The position numbers and the translations under genes were made by a program. A stretch of 24,874 nucleotides of DNA from a virus. Below the pieces are notes generated by a model that saw only the letters and a program-made list of their open reading frames with translations, had not been told where the DNA came from and did no database searches. Location: the IMG/VR virus record IMGVR_UViG_3300046001_009212, positions 1 to 24,874 of that record; one strand, given 5' to 3'. Of the stretch, positions 1 through 23,791 are shown piece after piece (the first letter of the stretch is position 1; each line of letters starts with the position of its first letter).

Positions 1-1376
1 TTTACTTAAAATTAGACCCTGAAAAAGGTATTGTTGGGGTACAACAACTACCAACAATAGAAATTGAAAGACATGAGGTTGGGGTTAGTGCAAAAATATC
101 AGTTGACATAACACAAGAATTAGAGAAAGACAAAAAATCCCTTCATTTTACTTGGAAGAATAAAAATATGGAATTTCAATCATGGGAGATTGCTCACTTT
201 AGATTATTAGGTGACGATAGAAAACTTCCTTACGGAACTTCAATGTTAGAAAAAGCAAGAAGAATTTGGAAACAATTATTACTATCAGAAGATGCGATGT
301 TAATTTATCGTACATCAAGAGCTCCTGAGAGAAGAATGTTCAAAGTCTTTGTGGGTAATATGAATGATGATGATGTTGAGGCATACGTAAACCGTGTTGC
401 AAACAAATTTAAAAGAGAACAAATTGTTGACAAAAATACAGGTAATGTCGATATGAGGTTTAACCAAATGGCGGTTGACCAAGATTATTTTATCCCTGTT
501 AGAGACCCATCAGCTCCTGACCCAATTACTACTTTACCTGGTGCAACTAACTTATCAGAGATTGCTGATATTGAATATATCCAAAAGAAATTATTAACCG
601 CTCTTCGTGTACCTAAAGCATTTTTAGGTTTTGAAGAAGTTGTTGGTGATGGTAAAAACTTGGCATTACAAGACATTAGATTCGCACGTACAATTAACAG
701 AATCCAAAAGAGTATGTTAGCCGAGTTAAATAAAATTGCTATTGTTCATTTATTCCTATTAGGATTTGAAGATGAACTTTCAAACTTTACTATTGGTCTT
801 ACAAATCCATCTACTCAAGCGGATTTATTAAAAATTGATGTTTGGAAAGAAAAGGTATTATTATACAAAGACTTAGTATCAGACCCAGGAAATGGTATTC
901 AAGCAACCTCATCTACATGGGCTAAGAAACATATTTTTGGATGGTCAGATGAAGAAGTTCGTTTAGATTTACAACAACAAAGAATTGAAAGAGCAGTTGG
1001 GGAAGAACTTAAAGCGACTGCAACAGTTATTACTAAAACAGGATTATTTGATAACATAGACAAATTATACGGAAGTGCAACAGGTGCAACACCAGCAGTA
1101 GGTGCAGAAACAACACCAGGAGGAACTGAAGAATTAAGTTCACCACCATCATTTGGGGGAGGAGAGGAATTACCTGACCTTGGAGCTGAAGCACCACCGG
1201 CAGGAGAAGCTCCACCGGGAGGGGAGCCTGAATTAGCTCCCGAATCTAAGAAAAAAGACTTAAATATTTTGATAGAAAACAATTTAATTGAGGGGTCTTC
1301 TATGATAAACTTAGGTCATGGACAAGATTCTTTAGGAGAAATTTCAAAAGAACTTGATAAGTTATTAAATTCGTAA
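1..1376 (+). CDS. 20: Portal vertex protein, T4 gp20-like (5' end missing)
   Basis: This is the portal protein, the dodecameric ring at the head vertex through which DNA is packaged and to which the tail attaches. The frame is open from position 3 to the stop at 1374-1376, so the gene enters from the left; the ATG at 168 is internal. It contains the gp20 hallmarks LPYGTSMLEKARRIWKQL and IYRTSRAPERRMFKV (RAPERR at 318-335), then VGN, a PGATNLSEIADIEYIQKKL stretch and ALRVPKAFLGFE. About 457 residues are present, against 524 in T4 gp20. The C-terminal ~100 residues are unusual: a Gly/Pro/Glu-rich low-complexity linker, then a short helical tail with LIENNLIEG that resembles a peptide in neighbouring head proteins. 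The next gene starts 13 nt after the stop. Family assignment is firm; the role of the tail is inferred. Confidence 0.95.
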   Translation, partial: YLKLDPEKGIVGVQQLPTIEIERHEVGVSAKISVDITQELEKDKKSLHFTWKNKNMEFQSWEIAHFRLLGDDRKLPYGTSMLEKARRIWKQLLLSEDAMLIYRTSRAPERRMFKVFVGNMNDDDVEAYVNRVANKFKREQIVDKNTGNVDMRFNQMAVDQDYFIPVRDPSAPDPITTLPGATNLSEIADIEYIQKKLLTALRVPKAFLGFEEVVGDGKNLALQDIRFARTINRIQKSMLAELNKIAIVHLFLLGFEDELSNFTIGLTNPSTQADLLKIDVWKEKVLLYKDLVSDPGNGIQATSSTWAKKHIFGWSDEEVRLDLQQQRIERAVGEELKATATVITKTGLFDNIDKLYGSATGATPAVGAETTPGGTEELSSPPSFGGGEELPDLGAEAPPAGEAPPGGEPELAPESKKKDLNILIENNLIEGSSMINLGHGQDSLGEISKELDKLLNS

Positions 1377-1383: not shown

Positions 1384-1389
1384 TTGAAA

Positions 1390-2097
1390 ATGAGTAAAAT
1401 GACTTTTGGAAAAATTAAATCCTTTATTGAGAATAATCTGCTAGAATCCTACAAAAATGAGAAGGATTTCAAGAAGACATTGAGAGAATTCAAACATAAT
1501 GTTTTGAGTAATAAATCTATGTCAAAAGCTTATGACCTATACAACCAATTGAGTACACCTCAAGGGTTAAGTGAGTCTGATGCCAAAGAATTTTTGGATG
1601 AAGGAATTTCTTTATTACAAAAAGTTTTACCGTCAATTAAATTACCAAGAACAATATCAGAATCGGTTAAAAACCGTTATAACGATATTGATACATTAGT
1701 TTATACTCAAAAGTTAAACTTAATAGAAAGAATTGAATCTAAAAAAAATATAGTTTCTATCCTTACCTCTAAACCTAATACGGTTAAAGAATCCATTAAT
1801 ATTCCCATAAAATCTATGGTTAGTATCGCTAACCAAACATTAAGAAATTATTTGGATAACTTAGATGAAAATTCTAAAAAAGAATTTATACAACTTGTTT
1901 CTGAAGACACTAAAGTTTTGGAAGATAAGTTTGAAGTTATTCGTGAAAGTGCGATTTCTAAACTTCAAACATTATTAGAAAAAGAAGAAGAAAATGAAAT
2001 TAAAACAAGAATTTCTGAAACAATTAATAAATTAAAAGACGAAAAGTTTGACCAAATGAATTTTTTAAGATTAAAAAATCTTGAATCATCAATCTAA
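1390..2097 (+). CDS. Helical head/core-associated protein, unrecognised
   Basis: This protein of about 235 residues is charged, probably all-helical and coiled-coil rich. It has no signal peptide or membrane segment. I do not recognise a family. It occupies the place of the small prohead core genes 67/68 between portal and protease in T4, so a core or head role is plausible but rests on position only. The N-terminus carries FIENNLLES (residues 12-20), resembling the portal C-terminal LIENNLIEG and containing a possible LxE prohead-protease site. I chose the ATG at 1390 over a TTG two codons upstream (1384), because the TTG touches the ATATTTAT motif. Its 3' end overlaps the convergent bS21 gene by 9 nt. 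Confidence 0.75.
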   Translation: MSKMTFGKIKSFIENNLLESYKNEKDFKKTLREFKHNVLSNKSMSKAYDLYNQLSTPQGLSESDAKEFLDEGISLLQKVLPSIKLPRTISESVKNRYNDIDTLVYTQKLNLIERIESKKNIVSILTSKPNTVKESINIPIKSMVSIANQTLRNYLDNLDENSKKEFIQLVSEDTKVLEDKFEVIRESAISKLQTLLEKEEENEIKTRISETINKLKDEKFDQMNFLRLKNLESSI

Positions 2098-2280
2098 ATT
2101 ATCTTTTTTACTTTGAATATATTTTGCCTTTAAAATCTGTGCTCTTTTAAGTACAGATTTTTTTGTATACTCTTTTCTCAGATTTAATTTTTGGTTTTGT
2201 TTTGTCTTAATGACTTTGGACTTAAGAGTCTTTAAAGCTCTTTCAATATTATCCCCACTATTAATTTTTACTATTATCAT
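2089..2280 (-). CDS. rpsU: Ribosomal protein bS21 (phage-encoded)
   Basis: This 63-residue, very basic protein matches bacterial bS21, a small-subunit protein near the 3' end of 16S rRNA that acts in translation initiation. The pattern seen is an N-terminal strand MIIVKI, then GDNIERALKTLKSKVIKTK (compare GENIERALKRxKRKxEKTG in Bacteroidota), LNLRKEYTKKSVLKR and a basic tail. The length matches Bacteroidota bS21 (about 64). Tyr54 lies in KAKYIQ; from memory, a tyrosine at this position in Flavobacterium bS21 stacks on the anti-Shine-Dalgarno region. The gene is antisense to the head operon, converges on the 1390-2097 gene with 9 nt overlap, and has no Shine-Dalgarno. A weak host-type promoter may lie upstream. 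Phage-encoded S21 is known from aquatic phages; its use here is inferred. Confidence 0.88.
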   Translation of the reverse strand: MIIVKINSGDNIERALKTLKSKVIKTKQNQKLNLRKEYTKKSVLKRAQILKAKYIQSKKDNLD

Positions 2281-2288
2281 ATAATATA

Positions 2289-2322
2289 CAAATATCTTGT
2301 TGTTTTAAAAAAATTTTGACAA
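2289..2322 (-). promoter_or_regulatory. Weak host-type promoter candidate for bS21
   Basis: On the minus strand, TTG (2320-2322) is followed after 23 nt by GATATTTG (2289-2296), one mismatch from the Bacteroidota -7 element TAnnTTTG. The spacing is at the long end for Flavobacterium promoters. The -7 box lies 8 nt upstream of the ATG, so the transcript would be almost leaderless. GATATTTG also resembles the phage (A/G)TATTTAT motif, so the promoter class is ambiguous. Confidence 0.3.
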
Positions 2323-2380
2323 TTTGAGATATATGTCTTATTTTTTTGTAGAACATAAACACATATAATAATGAAAATTA

Positions 2381-2818
2381 ATGAAAAAGGGAAAAAGTGT
2401 AAAGTTAAATTTATACAATCCAATTAAATCCGTCTACGGTACAGTAGATTCTAAAAATCTAAAATCTGTTTACATAAACATACAATCATGGGTAACCCCA
2501 AAAGAAGATTATGATAATTGGAACCGAATTGTTTCTAATTTAGGAAGAGAAATAAAACATTCTGTCTATGACTCAATAAACACTAAATTATTTCAAGATA
2601 AAAGTATTGTGGATTTAGACCTTAGAACTAGTGGAATATCTCACGGAAAAAAATCTTTTTTTAATTTAGAAATCAACCTATACACAAACTCTGAATTAGA
2701 TTTTAAATCAATTGAAATTAAAGATTCAATTAAAATAATTGTAAAATCAGTATTCAGAAACAACATACTACAAAACAAATATTTTGATTTTTCAACATCA
2801 AAAAAAACTAATGAATAA
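2381..2818 (+). CDS. Unknown protein in head cassette
   Basis: This is a predicted 145-residue soluble basic protein that I do not recognise. It alternates short hydrophobic strands (SVYINIQSWVTP, NLEINLYT, IKIIVKSVF) with polar stretches, suggesting a compact alpha/beta or beta-rich fold. There is no signal peptide, membrane segment or Cys cluster. It lies between bS21 and the protease, in the interval that holds small prohead core genes in T4. The ATG at 2381 follows an AATTA leader with no Shine-Dalgarno. Another ATG at 2371 is out of frame. It may be a head-assembly accessory, but that rests on location only. Confidence 0.7.
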   Translation: MKKGKSVKLNLYNPIKSVYGTVDSKNLKSVYINIQSWVTPKEDYDNWNRIVSNLGREIKHSVYDSINTKLFQDKSIVDLDLRTSGISHGKKSFFNLEINLYTNSELDFKSIEIKDSIKIIVKSVFRNNILQNKYFDFSTSKKTNE

Positions 2819-2857: not shown

Positions 2858-3574
2858 ATGAAAAAGTTAAGAATATTAGAGGCAAGTGAGACTGGTCACG
2901 GAATTTTAATTGAAACAGATGCGGGTTGGGTTTCCCCTAAAGAGAAACACAATGAGATTGTTTTGAAAGAAGCTAAAGAAATGGATTATAGAAACCCATT
3001 TGAATTTTATGCAGTACTACAAAAATATGATACACCAAACAGAAATGGTAGGTCATACCCTGAAAGAATCCTTAAAAGAGAAGCAGATAACTACAAACAA
3101 ACAATTGCTAAAGGGTTATCAACTTCTGAATTAAATCACCCTGAATCATCTCTTATTGATTTAGATAGAGTAGCCCACATCATTACTGATATATGGTGGG
3201 ATAAAAATATTTTAATGGGTAAGTTAAAATTATTAACTTCACCAGGGTTTCACGAAAGAGGGATTGTTTCAACTAAAGGAGACCAAGCAGCAAACTTAAT
3301 GAGACAAGGAGTTACTTTAGGGATTTCATCTCGTGGGGTTGGTTCACTTAAAAAAGTTGGGGAAAGAAATGAAGTACAAGATGATTTTGAATTAATCTGT
3401 TTTGACTTAGTGTCATCTCCATCAACACCAGGAGCTTACTTATTTTCAAATGCTGAAGATAGAGATAAGTACGAAGAAAATTTAGACGAAGAAAAAAAAT
3501 ACAAACAAAATAATGGAGTTGTTGAAAAAGAAGTTGACTTAATGAGAAAATTAAACGATTTTTTAGGAAAATAA
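2858..3574 (+). CDS. 21: Prohead core protease, T4 gp21-like
   Basis: This is the serine protease of the T4-type prohead, which cleaves scaffold and capsid proteins during head maturation and then itself. The family signature is clear: NRNGRSYP (61-68), the catalytic-His motif ELNHP (His94), and the nucleophile region GISSRG (155-160, Ser157 or Ser158), followed by CFDLVSSPSTPGA (181-193). The length of 238 is close to T4 gp21 (212). The N-terminus has RILEAS and LKEA, good matches to the (I/L)xE cleavage rule of this protease, consistent with autoprocessing. The C-terminal ~40 residues are charged and may also be removed. It lies just upstream of the scaffold and capsid genes, as in T4. Confidence 0.95.
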   Translation: MKKLRILEASETGHGILIETDAGWVSPKEKHNEIVLKEAKEMDYRNPFEFYAVLQKYDTPNRNGRSYPERILKREADNYKQTIAKGLSTSELNHPESSLIDLDRVAHIITDIWWDKNILMGKLKLLTSPGFHERGIVSTKGDQAANLMRQGVTLGISSRGVGSLKKVGERNEVQDDFELICFDLVSSPSTPGAYLFSNAEDRDKYEENLDEEKKYKQNNGVVEKEVDLMRKLNDFLGK

Positions 3575-3951: not shown

Positions 3952-5532
3952 ATGCAAGAAAATAACAAATTAGTACAAGAGGCACTTATTCAAATGAGAC
4001 AAGTTGAAGAAGCGATAGCCGAAAATGCAAAAGGAATACTTGCTTCAACTATGAAGGAAGAAATCAATCAGTTAGTAAAAGAATCTTTATCTGAACAAGA
4101 TGATGATGAGGTTGAATTAGATGTTGATATGGATGACGACGACATGGAAGATGTTGACGTTGACATTGATACTGATTATGAAGATGATGACGTAGACATG
4201 GATTTTGACATGGATACTGATTCTGAAGAAAGTCCGATAGACTTAACTGACGCTTCTGACGAAGAAATTCTTAAGGTGTTTAAAGCAATGGGTGAAGAAG
4301 ATGGCATCATAGTAAAAAAAGATGGTAACGATATTCACTTAACTGACAATGACTCTGATGAAGAATATCTAGTTAAGCTTGGTGAATCTGAAGAAGAATA
4401 TTACGAAGATATGGATGGAGATATGGATGAAGAACACGATGTTGATACAGAAGATGTAATTAACGCAATCTTTTCTAAAGACGGTGACGCTTCAGATATT
4501 GAAGTAGACCAAGACGACGAAGAAGTTATGTACGAAATCGAATTTGAAGAGGATGACGATATGTTAGACGAAGAGGATGACGATATGTTAGACGAAGAGG
4601 ATGACGATATGTTAGACGAAGAGGATGACGATATGTTAGACGAAGAAGACGAAGACGAAGATTTGGGCGAATCTTACAACCGAAGAAAAACTGTTAGAGA
4701 AGCAAAATCAACAATTAAACCTAAAGGTGTTGGAATTGGCTCAGGACCTAAATTCACTTACAAAGATAAAGCTGCGGGTGGATTTAAAGAGGACAAAAAA
4801 CAAGGTCCTAAATCAGTGGGTACTGGTAAAGCAAAATTTGAATACAAAGCGGGAGCAAATATGGAAGGAAAATCCAAAGTTGTTAAGGCAGAAACAAAAG
4901 AAGGTCAAGGATACAAAGACAAAGAAGATGAAAGGTTAGCAATGAAACATGGTAAAATTGCTTCAAAAGACCTTAAAACGACTAAAGCTCGTAGAGATGA
5001 CGCAGGTTTTGAAAAGAGAGAAACTAAAGAAGCTGCTAGAACTTATGGAATGGGTTCCAAAGAAGGTAGAGGACTTAGAAAAGGTATTACTAATAACAGA
5101 AATTATGTTTATGGTAATAGTGGAGTAAAAGTAGAATCTACTCAACAAGAAGTTAATATGTTGAGAGAGAAAAATGAAGAATACAGAAAAGCGTTAAATA
5201 TTTTCAGAGAAAAACTTAACGAAGTTGCAATCTTCAATTCAAACTTAGCGTATGCGACTAGATTGTTCACTGAACATTCGACTACTAAAAAAGAGAAAAT
5301 AAATATCTTAAGAAGATTTGACGATGTTGAAACTTTAAAAGAATCTAAAAATCTTTATCAGTCAATTAAAGGTGAGTTATCTAAACCAGATACAAAATCA
5401 ATTAATGAATCAGTAGAAACAAGATTAACAAAACAAGTTTCTTCAGGTTCATCATCTACACTAATTGAATCTAAAACTTACGAAAATCCTCAATTCATGA
5501 GAATGAAGGATTTGATGAGTAAATTAGGGTAA
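3952..5532 (+). CDS. 22: Prohead core scaffold, T4 gp22-like, with polyampholyte insert
   Basis: This is the internal scaffold on which the prohead shell assembles, later digested by gp21. Residues about 400-480 carry the gp22 signature: LNIFREKLNEVAIFNSNLAY, then ATRLFTEHSTTKKEKINILR and RFDDVETLKESKNLY. At 526 residues it is about twice the size of T4 gp22 (269). The extra mass is a strongly acidic segment (residues ~49-238), including four identical 8-residue Asp/Glu repeats at 200-231, followed by a Lys/Gly-rich basic segment (~243-390). Several LxE sites (for example LSE at 46-48, LIES near the C-terminus) fit protease digestion. It sits between protease and capsid genes, as in T4. The gp22 identity is firm; the role of the charged insert is unknown. 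Confidence 0.92.
   Translation: MQENNKLVQEALIQMRQVEEAIAENAKGILASTMKEEINQLVKESLSEQDDDEVELDVDMDDDDMEDVDVDIDTDYEDDDVDMDFDMDTDSEESPIDLTDASDEEILKVFKAMGEEDGIIVKKDGNDIHLTDNDSDEEYLVKLGESEEEYYEDMDGDMDEEHDVDTEDVINAIFSKDGDASDIEVDQDDEEVMYEIEFEEDDDMLDEEDDDMLDEEDDDMLDEEDDDMLDEEDEDEDLGESYNRRKTVREAKSTIKPKGVGIGSGPKFTYKDKAAGGFKEDKKQGPKSVGTGKAKFEYKAGANMEGKSKVVKAETKEGQGYKDKEDERLAMKHGKIASKDLKTTKARRDDAGFEKRETKEAARTYGMGSKEGRGLRKGITNNRNYVYGNSGVKVESTQQEVNMLREKNEEYRKALNIFREKLNEVAIFNSNLAYATRLFTEHSTTKKEKINILRRFDDVETLKESKNLYQSIKGELSKPDTKSINESVETRLTKQVSSGSSSTLIESKTYENPQFMRMKDLMSKLG
4549..4644 (+). repeat. 24-bp in-frame tandem repeat, four perfect copies
   Basis: Four identical 24-bp units run from 4549, 4573, 4597 and 4621, each encoding the eight residues EDDDMLDE. 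The copies are identical at every codon, so they look recently duplicated or homogenised. The unit is a multiple of three, so copy-number change keeps the scaffold frame. Confidence 0.97.
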
Positions 5533-5570: not shown

Positions 5571-7373
5571 ATGGGAGCATTATTAGAATCAGGTCTAGTT
5601 GGTAACATCGGGTTAAAACACCTTAAAGTTATCAAAGAAGACACAATCAACAAATGGGACAAATTAGGATTCTTAGAGGGTCTTAAAGGTCACATGAGAG
5701 AAAACGTAGCACAACTTTACGAAAACCAAGCATCGTATTTAATTAACGAAGCATCATCTACATCTGATACAGGTGCATTTGAAACTGTGGTTTTCCCAAT
5801 CGTTAGAAGAGTATTCTCTAAACTTTTGTCAAATGACATCGTTTCAGTACAAGCTATGAACTTACCAATCGGTAAATTATTCTACTTCGTACCAAATATT
5901 CAAGCATACACTGATGAATCAAACGCAAACACAGGTATCCACTACGCACCGTATGGTTCACCAAACGCGTCTGACGCACAAACACCAAACAGTGGTTATG
6001 ACTATAACAACACTAAAGACCTTTATGATAGATTCTACGAAGGTAATGAACCAGCTTTAGACCCACCAGGTTTATTTGACTATTCAAAAGGACAATTTTC
6101 TGCAATCACAGCTACGGTTACTACTGTATCATGGTTAGCGGACCAATTAGTTCCTTCAGGTTATAGTGAAGATAACTATAGAAAAGTTCTTATTGTAATG
6201 TCAGGTTTTGCATCTGATGGAGCAGGTAAATTAATCGGTCCTGACGGTCAACCGATGGATAACGAAGCGTTCTTATCTGATTTAACAGTTTATGGTGTTG
6301 CGGGTAACCCTACAACAGCAGCAAATGTTAATAACCCTTACTTATTTAGAGTTGTAACTCAAAGATATGGTAAAGGTATTGTTCAATATGGTAACAATAA
6401 CTCAACTTTAGTATTCCCTAACAGTAAAACTGATGGTGGTCAATATGACAACTTATGTGATGCTCAAGGTAAAATTTACTTAGAGGTTGATTTACAAGTA
6501 CCGGTTTGTATCACTTGTGGTGGTTCAATGGACGGTTATACAGGTTCAACTTTCTCATCTACAACAGCTTTAGATAGTGCGTTCACTGCTAAATATAGAA
6601 TCTACAAAAACTTAGAGTTTGAAGATAGAATCGGTGAGGTATCTTTCGACCTTATGTCAGTTACAGTTTCTGTAACAGAAAGAAAATTAAGAGCACAATG
6701 GTCTCCAGAAATGGCACAAGACGTTGCGGCATTCCACAACATTGATGCTGAAGCTGAATTAACGGCTTTATTATCTGAACAAGTTGCAGCTGAAATCGAC
6801 CGTGAAATCTTAAGAGATTTACGTAAAGGTGCAGCATGGAACTTACGTTGGGATTACAATGGTTGGAAACGTTTAGGTTCTTCTGCAGTTCCTTATACTC
6901 AAAAAGACTGGAACCAAACGCTTATCACAGCGATTAACCAAATCTCAGCTCAAATCCACAAATCTACATTAAGAGGTGGAGCTAACTGGATTGTTGTTTC
7001 TTCTGAAATCTCAGCTATCTTTGACGATTTAGAATACTTCCACGTATCAAACGCTTCTCCTGAGCAAGACCAATACAACATGGGTATTGAAAGAGTAGGT
7101 ACTTTAGCAGGTCGTTACCAAGTGTACAGAGACCCTTATTTCCCACCAAACCAAGTGTTATTGGGTCACAAAGGAACATCATTGTTAGACACAGGTTACA
7201 TCTACGCACCGTACGTACCTTTACAATTAACTCCAACAATGTATAACCCATTCAACTTCACACCAATCAAAGGTATCATGACTAGATACGCTAAGAAAAT
7301 GGTAAACAACCGTTTCTACGGTAGAATTACAGTTGATGGTGTAAGAACATTTGACTTAAGAGAGTTGAGATAA
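5571..7373 (+). CDS. 23: Major capsid protein, T4 gp23-like
   Basis: This is the HK97-fold major capsid protein that forms the head shell. Conserved gp23 features include an N-terminal propeptide with NKWDKLGFLEGL and ENQASYLINE, VRRVFSKLLSNDIVSVQAMN, the core block RKLRAQWSPEMAQDVAAFHN followed by IDAEAELTALL (from about residue 371), and a C-terminal TPIKGIMTRYAKKMVNNRFY. By analogy with T4 (cleaved after SFLTE), gp21 should cut after LINE at residue 60. The length of 600 exceeds T4 gp23 (521), with extra sequence around residues 110-270 where gp23 carries its insertion domain. The A-rich leader AAAAACCAAAAAAATG without Shine-Dalgarno fits strong initiation in Bacteroidota. No ATATTTAT motif lies nearby, so it may be read through from the scaffold promoter. 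Confidence 0.97.
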   Translation: MGALLESGLVGNIGLKHLKVIKEDTINKWDKLGFLEGLKGHMRENVAQLYENQASYLINEASSTSDTGAFETVVFPIVRRVFSKLLSNDIVSVQAMNLPIGKLFYFVPNIQAYTDESNANTGIHYAPYGSPNASDAQTPNSGYDYNNTKDLYDRFYEGNEPALDPPGLFDYSKGQFSAITATVTTVSWLADQLVPSGYSEDNYRKVLIVMSGFASDGAGKLIGPDGQPMDNEAFLSDLTVYGVAGNPTTAANVNNPYLFRVVTQRYGKGIVQYGNNNSTLVFPNSKTDGGQYDNLCDAQGKIYLEVDLQVPVCITCGGSMDGYTGSTFSSTTALDSAFTAKYRIYKNLEFEDRIGEVSFDLMSVTVSVTERKLRAQWSPEMAQDVAAFHNIDAEAELTALLSEQVAAEIDREILRDLRKGAAWNLRWDYNGWKRLGSSAVPYTQKDWNQTLITAINQISAQIHKSTLRGGANWIVVSSEISAIFDDLEYFHVSNASPEQDQYNMGIERVGTLAGRYQVYRDPYFPPNQVLLGHKGTSLLDTGYIYAPYVPLQLTPTMYNPFNFTPIKGIMTRYAKKMVNNRFYGRITVDGVRTFDLRELR

Positions 7374-18928: not shown

Positions 18929-19735
18929 TTATACATTTTCAGATTGATATTTTATGACTCTATCGTCAGTGAAAAAATATTCTTTTTTTGCGGTTTGAAT
19001 CCAAAATTTAACTTCATCTTCAACCATTCTTTCATCACCATTTTTGTAATTCCAAAAAATTGAACCTTCTCTTAAATTAACATGTTTGTATCCAAGTTTT
19101 GGTATTGTCATAATAGATACTGAATTGTAAGTAAGTCTTAATAAAAACTCATAAATAAATGTAAGTTTCATTGAGGATTTAAACCCTCCAAAGTCTTCAA
19201 TAATTTCTTTTTTAAATACGGAACCCGCTGTTTGGAAATTTTGATAATCTTGTAATGTTTCATTAGTTAAAAATCCCATCTCTTGTGTAAAGTTTGCAGC
19301 GAATGTTGCCTCATTAGTAAATCCTGCGAAAAGACCTTTTTCATCAGTTTCAACCACTACAGGTAAAAACATTTGTGTTTCAGGGTAAGCTTCAGAATAT
19401 GTTTTAACATTTTTAAACCAAATAGACGAATATTCGTCATCAAATTCAAAAAGGGATACCCAAGTACTCTTTGCGTTTTTTATTCCATAATTCACTTGTT
19501 CACAATAGTTAGGAGCTTCTCCCCATGGTAATTTAGATACTTGTAAATCGCCAAAATCATAATTGTTAAGATGATTAACTAATGATTCTTCATTAGTGTG
19601 TACAATGATTAACTCTTCAAAACCAACTTGTTGAGTTTTAAGAGATGATATTGCCTTTTCAAAATAGTCCTCAAAGTTTTTTGCTTTTGAGGATTTAATT
19701 GGTAGTATAACCGAAAGTGATAATTTATTGCTCAT
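18929..19735 (-). CDS. Glycosyltransferase, GT-A (GT2-like)
   Basis: This 268-residue protein has a GT-A start LSLSVILPIKSSKAKNFEDY, then AISSLKTQQVGFEELIIVHT, typical of GT2 enzymes that bind a nucleotide-sugar. A DxD-like metal site appears as FEFDDEYSS (98-101 FDDE). QTAGSVFKKEIIEDFGGF and FIYEFLLRLTY fit the acceptor side. There is no membrane segment, so it is cytosolic. Donor and acceptor are unknown. It sits between a GT-B enzyme and the late sigma gene, with 1 nt and 0 nt gaps. The target may be a virion protein, host glycan or DNA base; nothing here decides which. Confidence 0.85.
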   Translation of the reverse strand: MSNKLSLSVILPIKSSKAKNFEDYFEKAISSLKTQQVGFEELIIVHTNEESLVNHLNNYDFGDLQVSKLPWGEAPNYCEQVNYGIKNAKSTWVSLFEFDDEYSSIWFKNVKTYSEAYPETQMFLPVVVETDEKGLFAGFTNEATFAANFTQEMGFLTNETLQDYQNFQTAGSVFKKEIIEDFGGFKSSMKLTFIYEFLLRLTYNSVSIMTIPKLGYKHVNLREGSIFWNYKNGDERMVEDEVKFWIQTAKKEYFFTDDRVIKYQSENV

Positions 19736-19736
19736 A

Positions 19737-20789
19737 TTATTCTTCTGTTTTTGAAATTTGTTGTTCGAATGAATCCGCTCTATTGTTTAAGTAACCACTA
19801 AATAAGGTTACAACTGATGATTCAAATTTATGTTTATCTGAAAATGGTTCCACAGTTTTTTTCATTTCATCAAAAACTTCAGGATTTATATTATCCTCAA
19901 GCCAATTTTGTACATAATCTGCGATAATGTCTGGAAATAATGTTTGGTCTGTAATCCAAATACCATTGTTTTCTGTCATCCAATCAGGAGATAGATTTGG
20001 TACTTTACCAATCACAGGTACATTACATTTCATAGATTCTAATGGGAATGTACCAAACCCACTGTGGTCGTCAATCCAAACACTAACAAAACAATCACTT
20101 AAAGAATTGGCAAATTCTTTTTCAGAAAGACCTCTTAAATCTCTAAATGTGAACCATCTATATTGAGGGAATTTTAAATAAAAAGCTTTAATGATGTTTA
20201 TAGAATCACTTTGTTCTTTAGTGTGAATACCAATAATTGGCATTGGGGGTGTTGATTTTGGTTTAAAAAATTCTGTGATATACGGCTCAATAATATCAAA
20301 AGACGCTTGTCTCATAATTCTTTCCGCATATTCTTTTTGTTTGTTTGATGTTGTTAAACATTTCATAAACCCAAATTGAGACCATGATTGTCCTGGTTGT
20401 AATGTTTCTAACATATGTGCGTATTGTTGATTAAATACAATTTTTGCACAAGGTAATTGTTTTACTTGGTCCATTACGTACCCAAAAATTTCAGGTATGA
20501 TTAAAAAATCTTCAGGTGAGATTTCTAAATTTTGTCCCTCAATAGCTCTATGAGGTAAAGACATATATTCCTCATTTAACCAAGCAGCGACACCAGCGTA
20601 TTCTGCCTTTTCGTGTAATATGATTGGATTAAATCCGTTGTCTTTTAATGTTTTTGCCATTTGGTAAATAAGTCTGATAGAAGCCTTTGCGTTACCTTTA
20701 GTATCTTGTACTAAAAAATATATCCTTGCTTGTTTATCTCTTAATACTTGGATGGAGTTTAATACTTTTTCTTGAATTGTGTTTTCCAT
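19737..20789 (-). CDS. Glycosyltransferase, GT-B (GT4-like)
   Basis: This 350-residue protein has a GT-B layout. An N-terminal Rossmann half begins ARIYFLVQDTKGNAKASIRL. A linker leads to the C-terminal half with MPIIGIHTKEQSDSINIIKA and the donor-binding motif DHSGFGTFPLESMKCNVPVI (Glu251 in the GxxxxPLE position). That motif matches the G.G..plEAMacG.PVI pattern of GT4-like enzymes. It has no signal or membrane segment. It is 4 nt downstream of a small unknown gene and 1 nt upstream of the GT2 gene, so the two enzymes are likely co-expressed and may act in sequence. Substrate is unknown. Confidence 0.86.
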   Translation of the reverse strand: MENTIQEKVLNSIQVLRDKQARIYFLVQDTKGNAKASIRLIYQMAKTLKDNGFNPIILHEKAEYAGVAAWLNEEYMSLPHRAIEGQNLEISPEDFLIIPEIFGYVMDQVKQLPCAKIVFNQQYAHMLETLQPGQSWSQFGFMKCLTTSNKQKEYAERIMRQASFDIIEPYITEFFKPKSTPPMPIIGIHTKEQSDSINIIKAFYLKFPQYRWFTFRDLRGLSEKEFANSLSDCFVSVWIDDHSGFGTFPLESMKCNVPVIGKVPNLSPDWMTENNGIWITDQTLFPDIIADYVQNWLEDNINPEVFDEMKKTVEPFSDKHKFESSVVTLFSGYLNNRADSFEQQISKTEE

Positions 20790-21075: not shown

Positions 21076-21668
21076 ATTATTTCTTCTATTTTTAATTTGA
21101 GTTCTTTAATCTTTGATATTGAATACTCTGTTTTTATATCTGAGTTATAAGATGTGTCATATTTAACAATGATTTTATCCTCAGGATGGTTTAATAATAG
21201 TTTAGGATTTGCTGTAAGTAAAATGTCTACTGAATTCCAAAGTAAATTAATTGTACTTTCACTATAAAATCTAACAGATTCAATCAAACATCCAAATTTA
21301 GAAATGAAAAATAAAGTCGCTGGTTTAGATTTTCCAATTTCATCTGAAACAATTACTATTTCGTGATTGTCTCTCATATCTAAATAAAAATCATTTAAGT
21401 CTGACATACTTGAATTTTCTACGGAACCTGAATGTCCAAAAATTTCCATGGTATGTTCTTTGTATAAAAAATTATACAAATCATCTTCATCTTTAAAATT
21501 AAGATGAGAAAGTATATCTAAAGAAGTTAAGTCAGATATTACTTTATACTCAAACTCTTCTTCGTTTTCTTCTTTAAATGGATTATCAATATACCATTTT
21601 TCATACTCTTGTTGAATTTTTTTTAAAGTATCTCTAAGTACACCATTTACCTCAATACCAATTCTCAT
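21072..21668 (-). CDS. HAD-like phosphatase-fold protein with altered catalytic motif
   Basis: This 198-residue protein starts MRIGIEVNGVLRDT, matching the motif I region of HAD hydrolases (D-x-D-G-V-L). The two catalytic Asp positions are Glu6 and Asn8 here. A motif-II-like strand ends IVIVSDEIGKSKPATLFFIS with a Lys in place, and a motif-IV-like segment is WNSVDILLTANPKLL. The fold call is from pattern only. Loss of the nucleophile Asp suggests that it is not a normal phosphatase; it might bind a nucleotide or be regulatory. It overlaps PhoH at its start and the small unknown gene at its end, both by ATGA. Confidence 0.72.
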   Translation of the reverse strand: MRIGIEVNGVLRDTLKKIQQEYEKWYIDNPFKEENEEEFEYKVISDLTSLDILSHLNFKDEDDLYNFLYKEHTMEIFGHSGSVENSSMSDLNDFYLDMRDNHEIVIVSDEIGKSKPATLFFISKFGCLIESVRFYSESTINLLWNSVDILLTANPKLLLNHPEDKIIVKYDTSYNSDIKTEYSISKIKELKLKIEEII

Positions 21669-22405
21669 TCTTCGTATCTTTTTAAGATTTTAGAAATTAA
21701 TGGATTTCTCACAATATCTTCTGGTTTAAATTCAAATACCCCAACATCTTCCATGTCTTGGAATTTTTTAAGAGCATCCCACAATCCTGTTTGGGTTTTA
21801 TCTTTATGTCTATCAAATTGTTCTAAATCTCCTGATATAAAAAACTTGGAGTTAAAACCAATTCGGGTTAATAATAATTTCATTTGACTTGGAGTTGAAT
21901 TTTGAGCTTCTTCAAAAATTAAAATTGAGTTATCAATATTCATTCCTCTCATATAAGCTAACGCAAAAACTTCAATCGCTTCAATATCTTTTAGTTTTTC
22001 TCTTATGTCTTTACCAATAATTTTATTTAAAAGATAATATGAGGGAAAAATATAAGGGTCTAACTTTTCCTCAACCCCACCAGGTAAACTACCTAATTTT
22101 TCTTCAGCTTCTACTGCCGGTCTTACAATAATAATTTTTTCATATGGAGTTGTTGGGTCAATTAATAAGTCCACAGCCGCTTTCATTGCTATGTAACTTT
22201 TACCAACTCCCGCAGGTCCTGAACATATTGTAATTTGATTTGTAGATAACTTATCATAATATGTTTTTTGACTTTCTGATAAAAATTTTTGTTTTGTCTT
22301 TTTAGGGACAATTGAACAAATTAAATCTTTTTTATTGATAGGTTTGTTAGTTGTTTCAGGTGTAGGTGTTGGTTTAGTGTTCTTTGATTTGCTGTATGTC
22401 GCCAT
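21665..22405 (-). CDS. phoH: PhoH-like ATPase
   Basis: This 246-residue P-loop ATPase matches PhoH. It has Walker A GPAGVGKS (63-70), IIIVRPAVEAEEKLGSLPGG, Walker B ILIFEEAQN (161-169; the first acidic residue is Glu), TRIG at 180-183 and SGDLEQFD at 191-198. PhoH proteins are common in marine phages, sometimes linked to phosphate stress and RNA metabolism, but their function is uncertain. The N-terminal ~40 residues are a Thr/Pro/Lys linker. It lies in the sugar/accessory part of the minus-strand operon, overlapping the HAD-like gene by 4 nt. Confidence 0.93.
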   Translation of the reverse strand: MATYSKSKNTKPTPTPETTNKPINKKDLICSIVPKKTKQKFLSESQKTYYDKLSTNQITICSGPAGVGKSYIAMKAAVDLLIDPTTPYEKIIIVRPAVEAEEKLGSLPGGVEEKLDPYIFPSYYLLNKIIGKDIREKLKDIEAIEVFALAYMRGMNIDNSILIFEEAQNSTPSQMKLLLTRIGFNSKFFISGDLEQFDRHKDKTQTGLWDALKKFQDMEDVGVFEFKPEDIVRNPLISKILKRYEE

Positions 22406-22810: not shown

Positions 22811-23791
22811 TTAATTTTTTGTGTAAAAGTTTATCCAATGTTCAATCATTTCATCTAACATTGCCTCAAATGTGTATTCAGGTGACCATCCTGTTACCAA
22901 ATTTAATTTTGATGAGTCTCCCTTTAAATCACGAAGTTCCTCAGGTCTTAAGAATTTTTCATCAACTGTAACATAGTCTTTATAATTTAACCCTAACTTT
23001 GAAAAAGTATACTCACATAAATCTTCTACTGAATGTGAAATCCCTGTCGAACATACATAATCATCTGGTTTGTCTTGTTGTAATATCATCCACATTGCTT
23101 TTACATAATCTTTAGCGTGGCCCCAATCTCTAGTTGCTTCTAAATTACCTAATTTTAATTCATTTGATAATCCTAATTTAATCTTAACCGCTTCTTTACA
23201 AACTTTATTTGTAACAAAGTTTGTTCCTCGTCTTGGAGATTCGTGATTAAATAAAATACCGTTGGAAATAAACATACCATACGAGTTTCTATAGTTTCTC
23301 CCAATATTATAACTAAACACTTTGGCACACCCATAAGGTGATACAGGATTTAATGGGGTGGATTCTCTTTGGAACCCATCTTCGTCAATTGAGTTTCCAA
23401 ACATTTCTGAAGAAGATGCTTGGTATATTTTAATAGACGGTTTAATTAATTTAACTGCTTCTAATAAATTAAGAGTTCCAATACCTGTGACATTGGCTGT
23501 GTATATTGGTTGGTCAAACGAAATCCTAACATGGGATTGTGCTGCCAAATTATAAATTTCATCAGGATTTGTTTTTTGAATTACAGAAATTAATGAAGAT
23601 AAATCAGTTAAATCCGAGTAGTGTAGGTTAATTTGGTTAAATATGTTATCCAATCTTGCAGTTTGGTTTTCTGCTACTGAATTTCTTTTTAAAGTCCCGT
23701 GTACTTCATATCCTTTTTCAAGTAAAAATTCTGCTAAATAAGAACCATCTTGACCATTTATTCCTGTTATAAGTGCAATTTTTTTTGACAT
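22811..23791 (-). CDS. gmd: GDP-mannose 4,6-dehydratase
   Basis: This enzyme converts GDP-D-mannose to GDP-4-keto-6-deoxymannose, the precursor of fucose, rhamnose, perosamine and colitose. The short-chain dehydrogenase core is complete: GINGQDGSYLAE with GxxGxxG (10-16), NLAAQSHV, SSSEMFG with catalytic Ser127 and Glu129, and YGCAK with Tyr153 and Lys157. NHESPRRGTNFVT and RDWGHAKDYVKAMW are typical Gmd blocks. Length 326 is slightly short of E. coli Gmd (373), mostly in the C-terminal part. It is 1 nt after a fucosyltransferase-like gene and two genes after a DegT-type aminotransferase, so it should feed a GDP-6-deoxy sugar to a local transferase. Confidence 0.95.
   Translation of the reverse strand: MSKKIALITGINGQDGSYLAEFLLEKGYEVHGTLKRNSVAENQTARLDNIFNQINLHYSDLTDLSSLISVIQKTNPDEIYNLAAQSHVRISFDQPIYTANVTGIGTLNLLEAVKLIKPSIKIYQASSSEMFGNSIDEDGFQRESTPLNPVSPYGCAKVFSYNIGRNYRNSYGMFISNGILFNHESPRRGTNFVTNKVCKEAVKIKLGLSNELKLGNLEATRDWGHAKDYVKAMWMILQQDKPDDYVCSTGISHSVEDLCEYTFSKLGLNYKDYVTVDEKFLRPEELRDLKGDSSKLNLVTGWSPEYTFEAMLDEMIEHWINFYTKN

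Follow-up and report, generated by a model that had tools for sequence, protein, structure and literature searches.

A phage bS21 gene without a Shine-Dalgarno sequence that may escape and repress the autoregulated rpsU of its host

bS21 is the ribosomal protein most often encoded by phages, and why phages carry it is a standing question. In Flavobacteriales, bS21 together with bS18 and bS6 hides the anti-Shine-Dalgarno (anti-SD) sequence, and rpsU is typically the sole gene with a strong SD: it is best translated by ribosomes that lack bS21, which creates a feedback loop (PMC9976891). This autoregulation depends on Tyr54 and on the strong SD; a Y54A exchange or depletion of bS21 raises the expression of rpsU reporters and leaves SD-less reporters hardly changed in vivo (PMC9976891). 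Chen et al. 2022 (PMC9723584) described 47 bS21-encoding huge phages of freshwater Bacteroidetes, divided into clades a-e and with predicted Bacteroidetes hosts. They noted an aromatic residue 54 and a divergent helix 1 alongside a conserved 16S-binding half, reported high in situ expression of bS21 alongside late genes in metatranscriptomes, and proposed that the phage bS21 substitutes into host ribosomes; packaging into virions was also raised. McNutt et al. 2023 (PMC9976891) discussed such phages too, with autoregulation as a possible counter-defence of the host. Entry of a phage bS21 into ribosomes has been shown only for the protein of another phage, pelagiphage HTVC008M, and into 70S ribosomes of E. 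coli (Mizuno et al. 2019, PMC6375957).

The locus described here lies on a viral sequence of 24,874 nucleotides (IMG/VR record IMGVR_UViG_3300046001_009212, the window), which matches a portion of a 129,618-bp IMG/VR contig at 99.8% identity. A 317-kb contig is homologous to it; the two contigs hold 22 and 20 tRNA genes, respectively. Two hallmarks of the group of Chen et al. are found: the reverse-strand bS21 gene inside the portal-protease-major capsid protein (MCP) region and, via the two contigs, the large genome with many tRNA genes (Table 1). The kind of gene is thus already known, and the antisense arrangement, the hosts, Tyr54 and much of the hypothesis have been published (PMC9723584). 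The text of that paper makes no mention of promoter, terminator or autoregulation; the leader contrast, promoter box, antisense terminator and empty site described below were not found in published work, subscription journals and preprints lying outside the search.

Table 1. Features of the bS21 locus and the surrounding head genes (positions in the window).
Feature	Position	Strand	Remarks and evidence
T4-like portal protein (gp20)	168..1376	+	Pfam PF07230, E 3.6e-64, profile 156-426
hyp237, conserved hypothetical	1384..2097	+	9-bp tail-to-tail overlap with the bS21 3' end
Phage bS21 gene, 63 aa, ATG start, Tyr54	2089..2280	-	Pfam PF01165, PDB 7jil, purifying selection
Predicted intrinsic terminator (stem-loop and T run) of the portal-hyp237 transcript	2132..2164	+	antisense inside bS21 codons 39-50
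Late-promoter-like box TATTTGTA	2287..2294	-	at -14 of the bS21 ATG, no SD in leader; sequence, box statistics
TTGACA-17-TATTTT promoter-like site of hyp145	2316..2344	+	reverse complement is the conserved GTCAAAA upstream of bS21
hyp145, conserved hypothetical, divergent from bS21	2381..2818	+	
Prohead protease (Peptidase_S77)	2858..3574	+	Pfam PF03420, E 5.4e-23
Major capsid protein (gp23)	5571..7373	+	Pfam PF07068, E 5.3e-71

The reading of the initial annotation, a 63-residue bS21 of the Bacteroidota pattern with Tyr54 that should align with bS21 profiles, holds: the open reading frame is a genuine bS21. It matches the Pfam family Ribosomal_S21 with an E-value of 6.5e-9 and 35.8 bits, above the curated cut-off of 27, and aligns end to end with chain z of 7jil, the bS21 of Flavobacterium johnsoniae (phmmer, E 1.2e-12), with 51% identity over the full length and its Tyr54 opposite Tyr54 of 7jil. 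The AlphaFold model is helical (pLDDT 90), and seven of its eight weak, non-significant Foldseek matches are bS21 chains (E 0.39 or worse, TM about 0.5); PHROGs has no good bS21 model for the protein (E 0.085). Values of dN/dS are low, 0.05-0.24 in comparisons with 13 relatives and with a median of 0.17 within the clade, indicating a real gene under purifying selection. The C-terminal segment for binding of the 16S tail is conserved, including Tyr54. By this residue the protein would belong to the Bacteroidota-type bS21 that occludes the anti-SD, in which an aromatic residue 54 makes a stacking contact with A1534 of the tail. Position 54 is Tyr or His in each of the 67 distinct proteins that make up the phage clade (His in 14).

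The genes of the cassette are arranged in the order portal, hyp237, bS21 (antisense), hyp145, protease, DUF4494, scaffold-like protein and MCP. The initial annotation had placed bS21 antisense between portal and protease and suggested looking for it at the same site in related phages: orientation and T4-like head cassette are as described, the direct neighbours are instead hyp237, which follows the portal gene, and hyp145, which precedes the protease gene, and well over 100 loci in IMG/VR have this gene order. The portal match covers the later part of the profile only, and the gene's true start is probably upstream of the window, or was missed. The scaffold-like acidic protein (3952-5532, plus strand, 526 aa) has a tandem EEDDDMLD repeat and is 16 residues longer (542 aa) on the 99.8% identical contig; near-identical phages thus probably differ in how many repeats they have. 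Further downstream, two glycosyltransferase-like genes and a GDP-mannose 4,6-dehydratase gene on the minus strand (18929-20789 and 22811-23791) are situated near a PhoH gene (21665-22405), which fits modification of surface sugars.

The most pronounced difference between phage and cellular genes is in the leader. SD energies were calculated as pairing of the leader with the 16S tail GAUCACCUCCUUUCU, assuming a canonical anti-SD throughout, and an extended SD was defined by a threshold of -13 kcal/mol. This threshold is reached or exceeded in strength by 77 of 80 rpsU leaders of cellular Flavobacteriales (median about -20), versus none of 80 close phage bS21 leaders (median -1.55). An IMG/VR scan with the bS21 protein confirmed at least 585 relatives, the best 80 of which were retained. 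At -1.5 kcal/mol, the leader in the window has no extended SD of the kind found in autoregulated Bacteroidota rpsU. The three cellular exceptions are L148 (N-masked), L153 and L129, the latter a chromosomal gene of Salegentibacter sp. R32 (L129:3001-3195) that has no SD and adjoins a sigma-factor gene. Among 59 more distant viral bS21 genes only one has a strong SD: this gene, on a 119-kb viral contig (L239:5001-5192), keeps AAAGGAGG with -14.3 kcal/mol. Absence of the SD is general in these phages and extends beyond the bS21 gene, in agreement with the SD-less phage mRNAs of the initial annotation: phage start regions have no SD and are A-rich at -3 and at -11 to -13, which are host-like signals. 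The missing SD may simply reflect the phage's own expression signals.

In place of an SD, most phage bS21 leaders have a late-type box at -12 to -14, mostly TATTT[G/C]TA at -12; some have TATTTATA without a mismatch, at -12 or near -22 or -36. TATAAATA, the late box of T4, is the reverse complement of TATTTATA. This octamer is found 95 times in the 317-kb relative (L162-L177). Chance would put 3.6 of these copies on the sense strand within the 60 nt that precede a start; 54 lie there, and their distances from the ATG peak at -12/-11 and around -21. The box is also present in L178-L184 and in the window, where it precedes the gene of the scaffold-like protein (3952), the one that follows MCP (7454) and a pair in the reverse block. 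By these statistics, TATTTATA behaves as a promoter box of the phage, probably a late one. The T4 late box is found at -13 to -6; by analogy, the proximity of the box to the ATG suggests that late messages of the phage may be leaderless or have very short leaders. The G form of the box also resembles the host -7 element TAnnTTTG, and a host sigma factor may recognise it. The conserved [AT]GTCAAAA upstream of bS21 was set aside as a part of bS21's own promoter, because its reverse is the TTGAC[AT] -35 element of hyp145, which is conserved in sister phages without bS21 too.

These sister phages are represented by seven loci (L262, L263, L265, L266, L267, L269 and L270) with proteases 88-92% identical to that of the window. 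The gap between hyp237 and hyp145 is 135-139 bp and holds a terminator, and bS21 was not found anywhere on the seven records, all of which are fragments. In a protease tree with a distant outgroup, the seven group together (SH-aLRT 98) within the phages that have bS21, and loss of bS21 in this clade is likely, rather than gain. At least one lineage can therefore do without bS21. Nor do the flanking genes need it: hyp237 and hyp145 persist in the sisters, so that no functional bond of bS21 with either of them is required.

In the window, the terminator of the head genes is predicted to lie within the bS21 coding sequence, on the opposite strand, making this a candidate dual-use stretch. Only 6 of 1500 synonymous recodings of bS21 with phage codon usage gave a terminator of -10 kcal/mol or better, and among 56 distinct genes the synonymous codon diversity has a mean of 0.085 in the stem codons versus 0.33 elsewhere. 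A covariation count on the stem was uninformative, as there is too little variation; the case for the terminator is thus built on the recoding test and the low synonymous diversity. In 69 of 99 distinct bS21 loci, the interval contains a terminator of -8 kcal/mol or better. About 30 of the 99 have none there; the embedded terminator is therefore clade-specific, and we reject it as a universal trait. One group (L073/L074/L200/L220) has a different terminator, at the bS21 stop. That the U run of the terminator has driven the exchange P41K is not supported, because K41 is also found in phages without the terminator.

How might the phage benefit from its bS21? The initial annotation had suggested that SD-blind ribosomes favour the SD-less mRNAs of the phage. 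This is weak, since the host mRNAs of Flavobacteriales lack an SD as well, and reporters without one are barely affected by mutation or depletion of bS21 (PMC9976891). With nearly all host mRNAs lacking an SD, SD-blindness alone cannot tell phage from host mRNAs; it does discriminate against host rpsU. We tentatively prefer an explanation that builds on this, and judge it, taken as a whole, slightly less than an even bet: the gene would encode a Bacteroidota bS21 that has adapted to the virus and, produced late in infection, escapes the feedback loop, fills the 30S subunits and represses host rpsU. With an SD-less leader and a late-type box, the phage bS21 would be translated by ordinary, bS21-replete ribosomes and so evade host autoregulation. 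The protein would load onto 30S subunits that lack or are losing bS21 and the anti-SD would stay occluded; SD-dependent translation of host rpsU would be shut down, and the phage bS21 would progressively own the ribosome slot. Replacement of the host protein is plausible by analogy, because the bS21 of a pelagiphage is taken up into 70S ribosomes of E. coli (PMC6375957). The strictest form, a one-way replacement in which the SD-less, late-promoter-driven bS21 silences host rpsU and is itself immune, is possible and rather more doubtful.

The contrast in SD strength, the retention of Tyr or His at position 54, the late-type box and the purifying selection count for this explanation, together with the published rpsU autoregulation (PMC9976891) and late expression (PMC9723584). 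The bS21-less sisters, His54 in a part of the clade, the strong SD of L239 and the general absence of SDs in these phages count against it. Judging by the phage gene, which has Tyr54 and no SD, host autoregulation may be exploited by the phage rather than act as a counter-defence. The leader contrast gives the question of why phages carry bS21 a specific prediction: in F. johnsoniae, for which reporters exist, phage bS21 would be expected to reduce rpsU'-gfp and to take the place of the host protein. Sister phages that lack bS21 offer a natural control.

Helix 1 of the phage clade has a block of fixed changes in comparison to cellular bS21 (R18T, F/Y19L, R21S, F23V, R30Q and others), and these may confer an mRNA preference, make the protein harder to remove, or contribute nothing apart from supply. 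A preference is the core of the model of Chen et al., in which phage bS21 replaces that of the host and the altered helix 1, close to where the mRNA passes, gives the ribosome a preference for late phage mRNAs. The fixed differences next to a conserved 16S-binding half agree with it, as PMC9723584 likewise concludes, and leaderless or short-leader late messages, if these exist, could be selected by a changed ribosome. However, invariance at positions 24-28 is partly built in, the clade being defined by a motif at these positions, and no distinct phage signal was found at the phage starts, with their host-like A-rich positions and lack of SD; we regard this model as unlikely. Marginally less likely still is that phage bS21 only serves to complete 30S subunits in the late stage of infection, once host expression has failed, with selectivity unchanged and no effect on rpsU that matters. 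That bS21 joins late, is exchangeable and, in F. johnsoniae, is essential (PMC9976891) speaks for such a supply role, and the about 20 tRNA genes of these phages are consistent with general support of translation, but the uniform block of helix-1 changes is left unexplained. A non-ribosomal role in RNA binding, head assembly or virion packaging, the last as raised by Chen et al. (PMC9723584), would fit the conserved position among head genes but is very improbable, given that ribosome-facing residues including Tyr54 are conserved and sister phages with a matching head cassette manage without bS21.

Of the known systems, the Pelagibacter phage HTVC008M (PMC6375957) shares a phage-encoded bS21 and differs in host phylum. 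Cellular Flavobacteriales bS21 (7jil; PMC9976891) resembles the phage protein in whole-length identity, Tyr54 and the RAQI-KA-YIQ segment and differs in helix 1 (RYKRKFDKTG in the cellular, TLKSKVIKTKQ in the phage protein). In the phages of Chen et al. (PMC9723584), bS21 is likewise antisense and flanked by hypothetical genes on either side within the TerL-portal-protease-MCP region; the aromatic position 54, the divergence of helix 1, the many tRNAs and genomes of about 300 kb are shared too, and no essential difference was seen. TerL, the basis of clades a-e, lies outside the window. The bS21-less outgroups of that study were set by TerL distance, whereas the bS21-less phages described here are a close sister clade.
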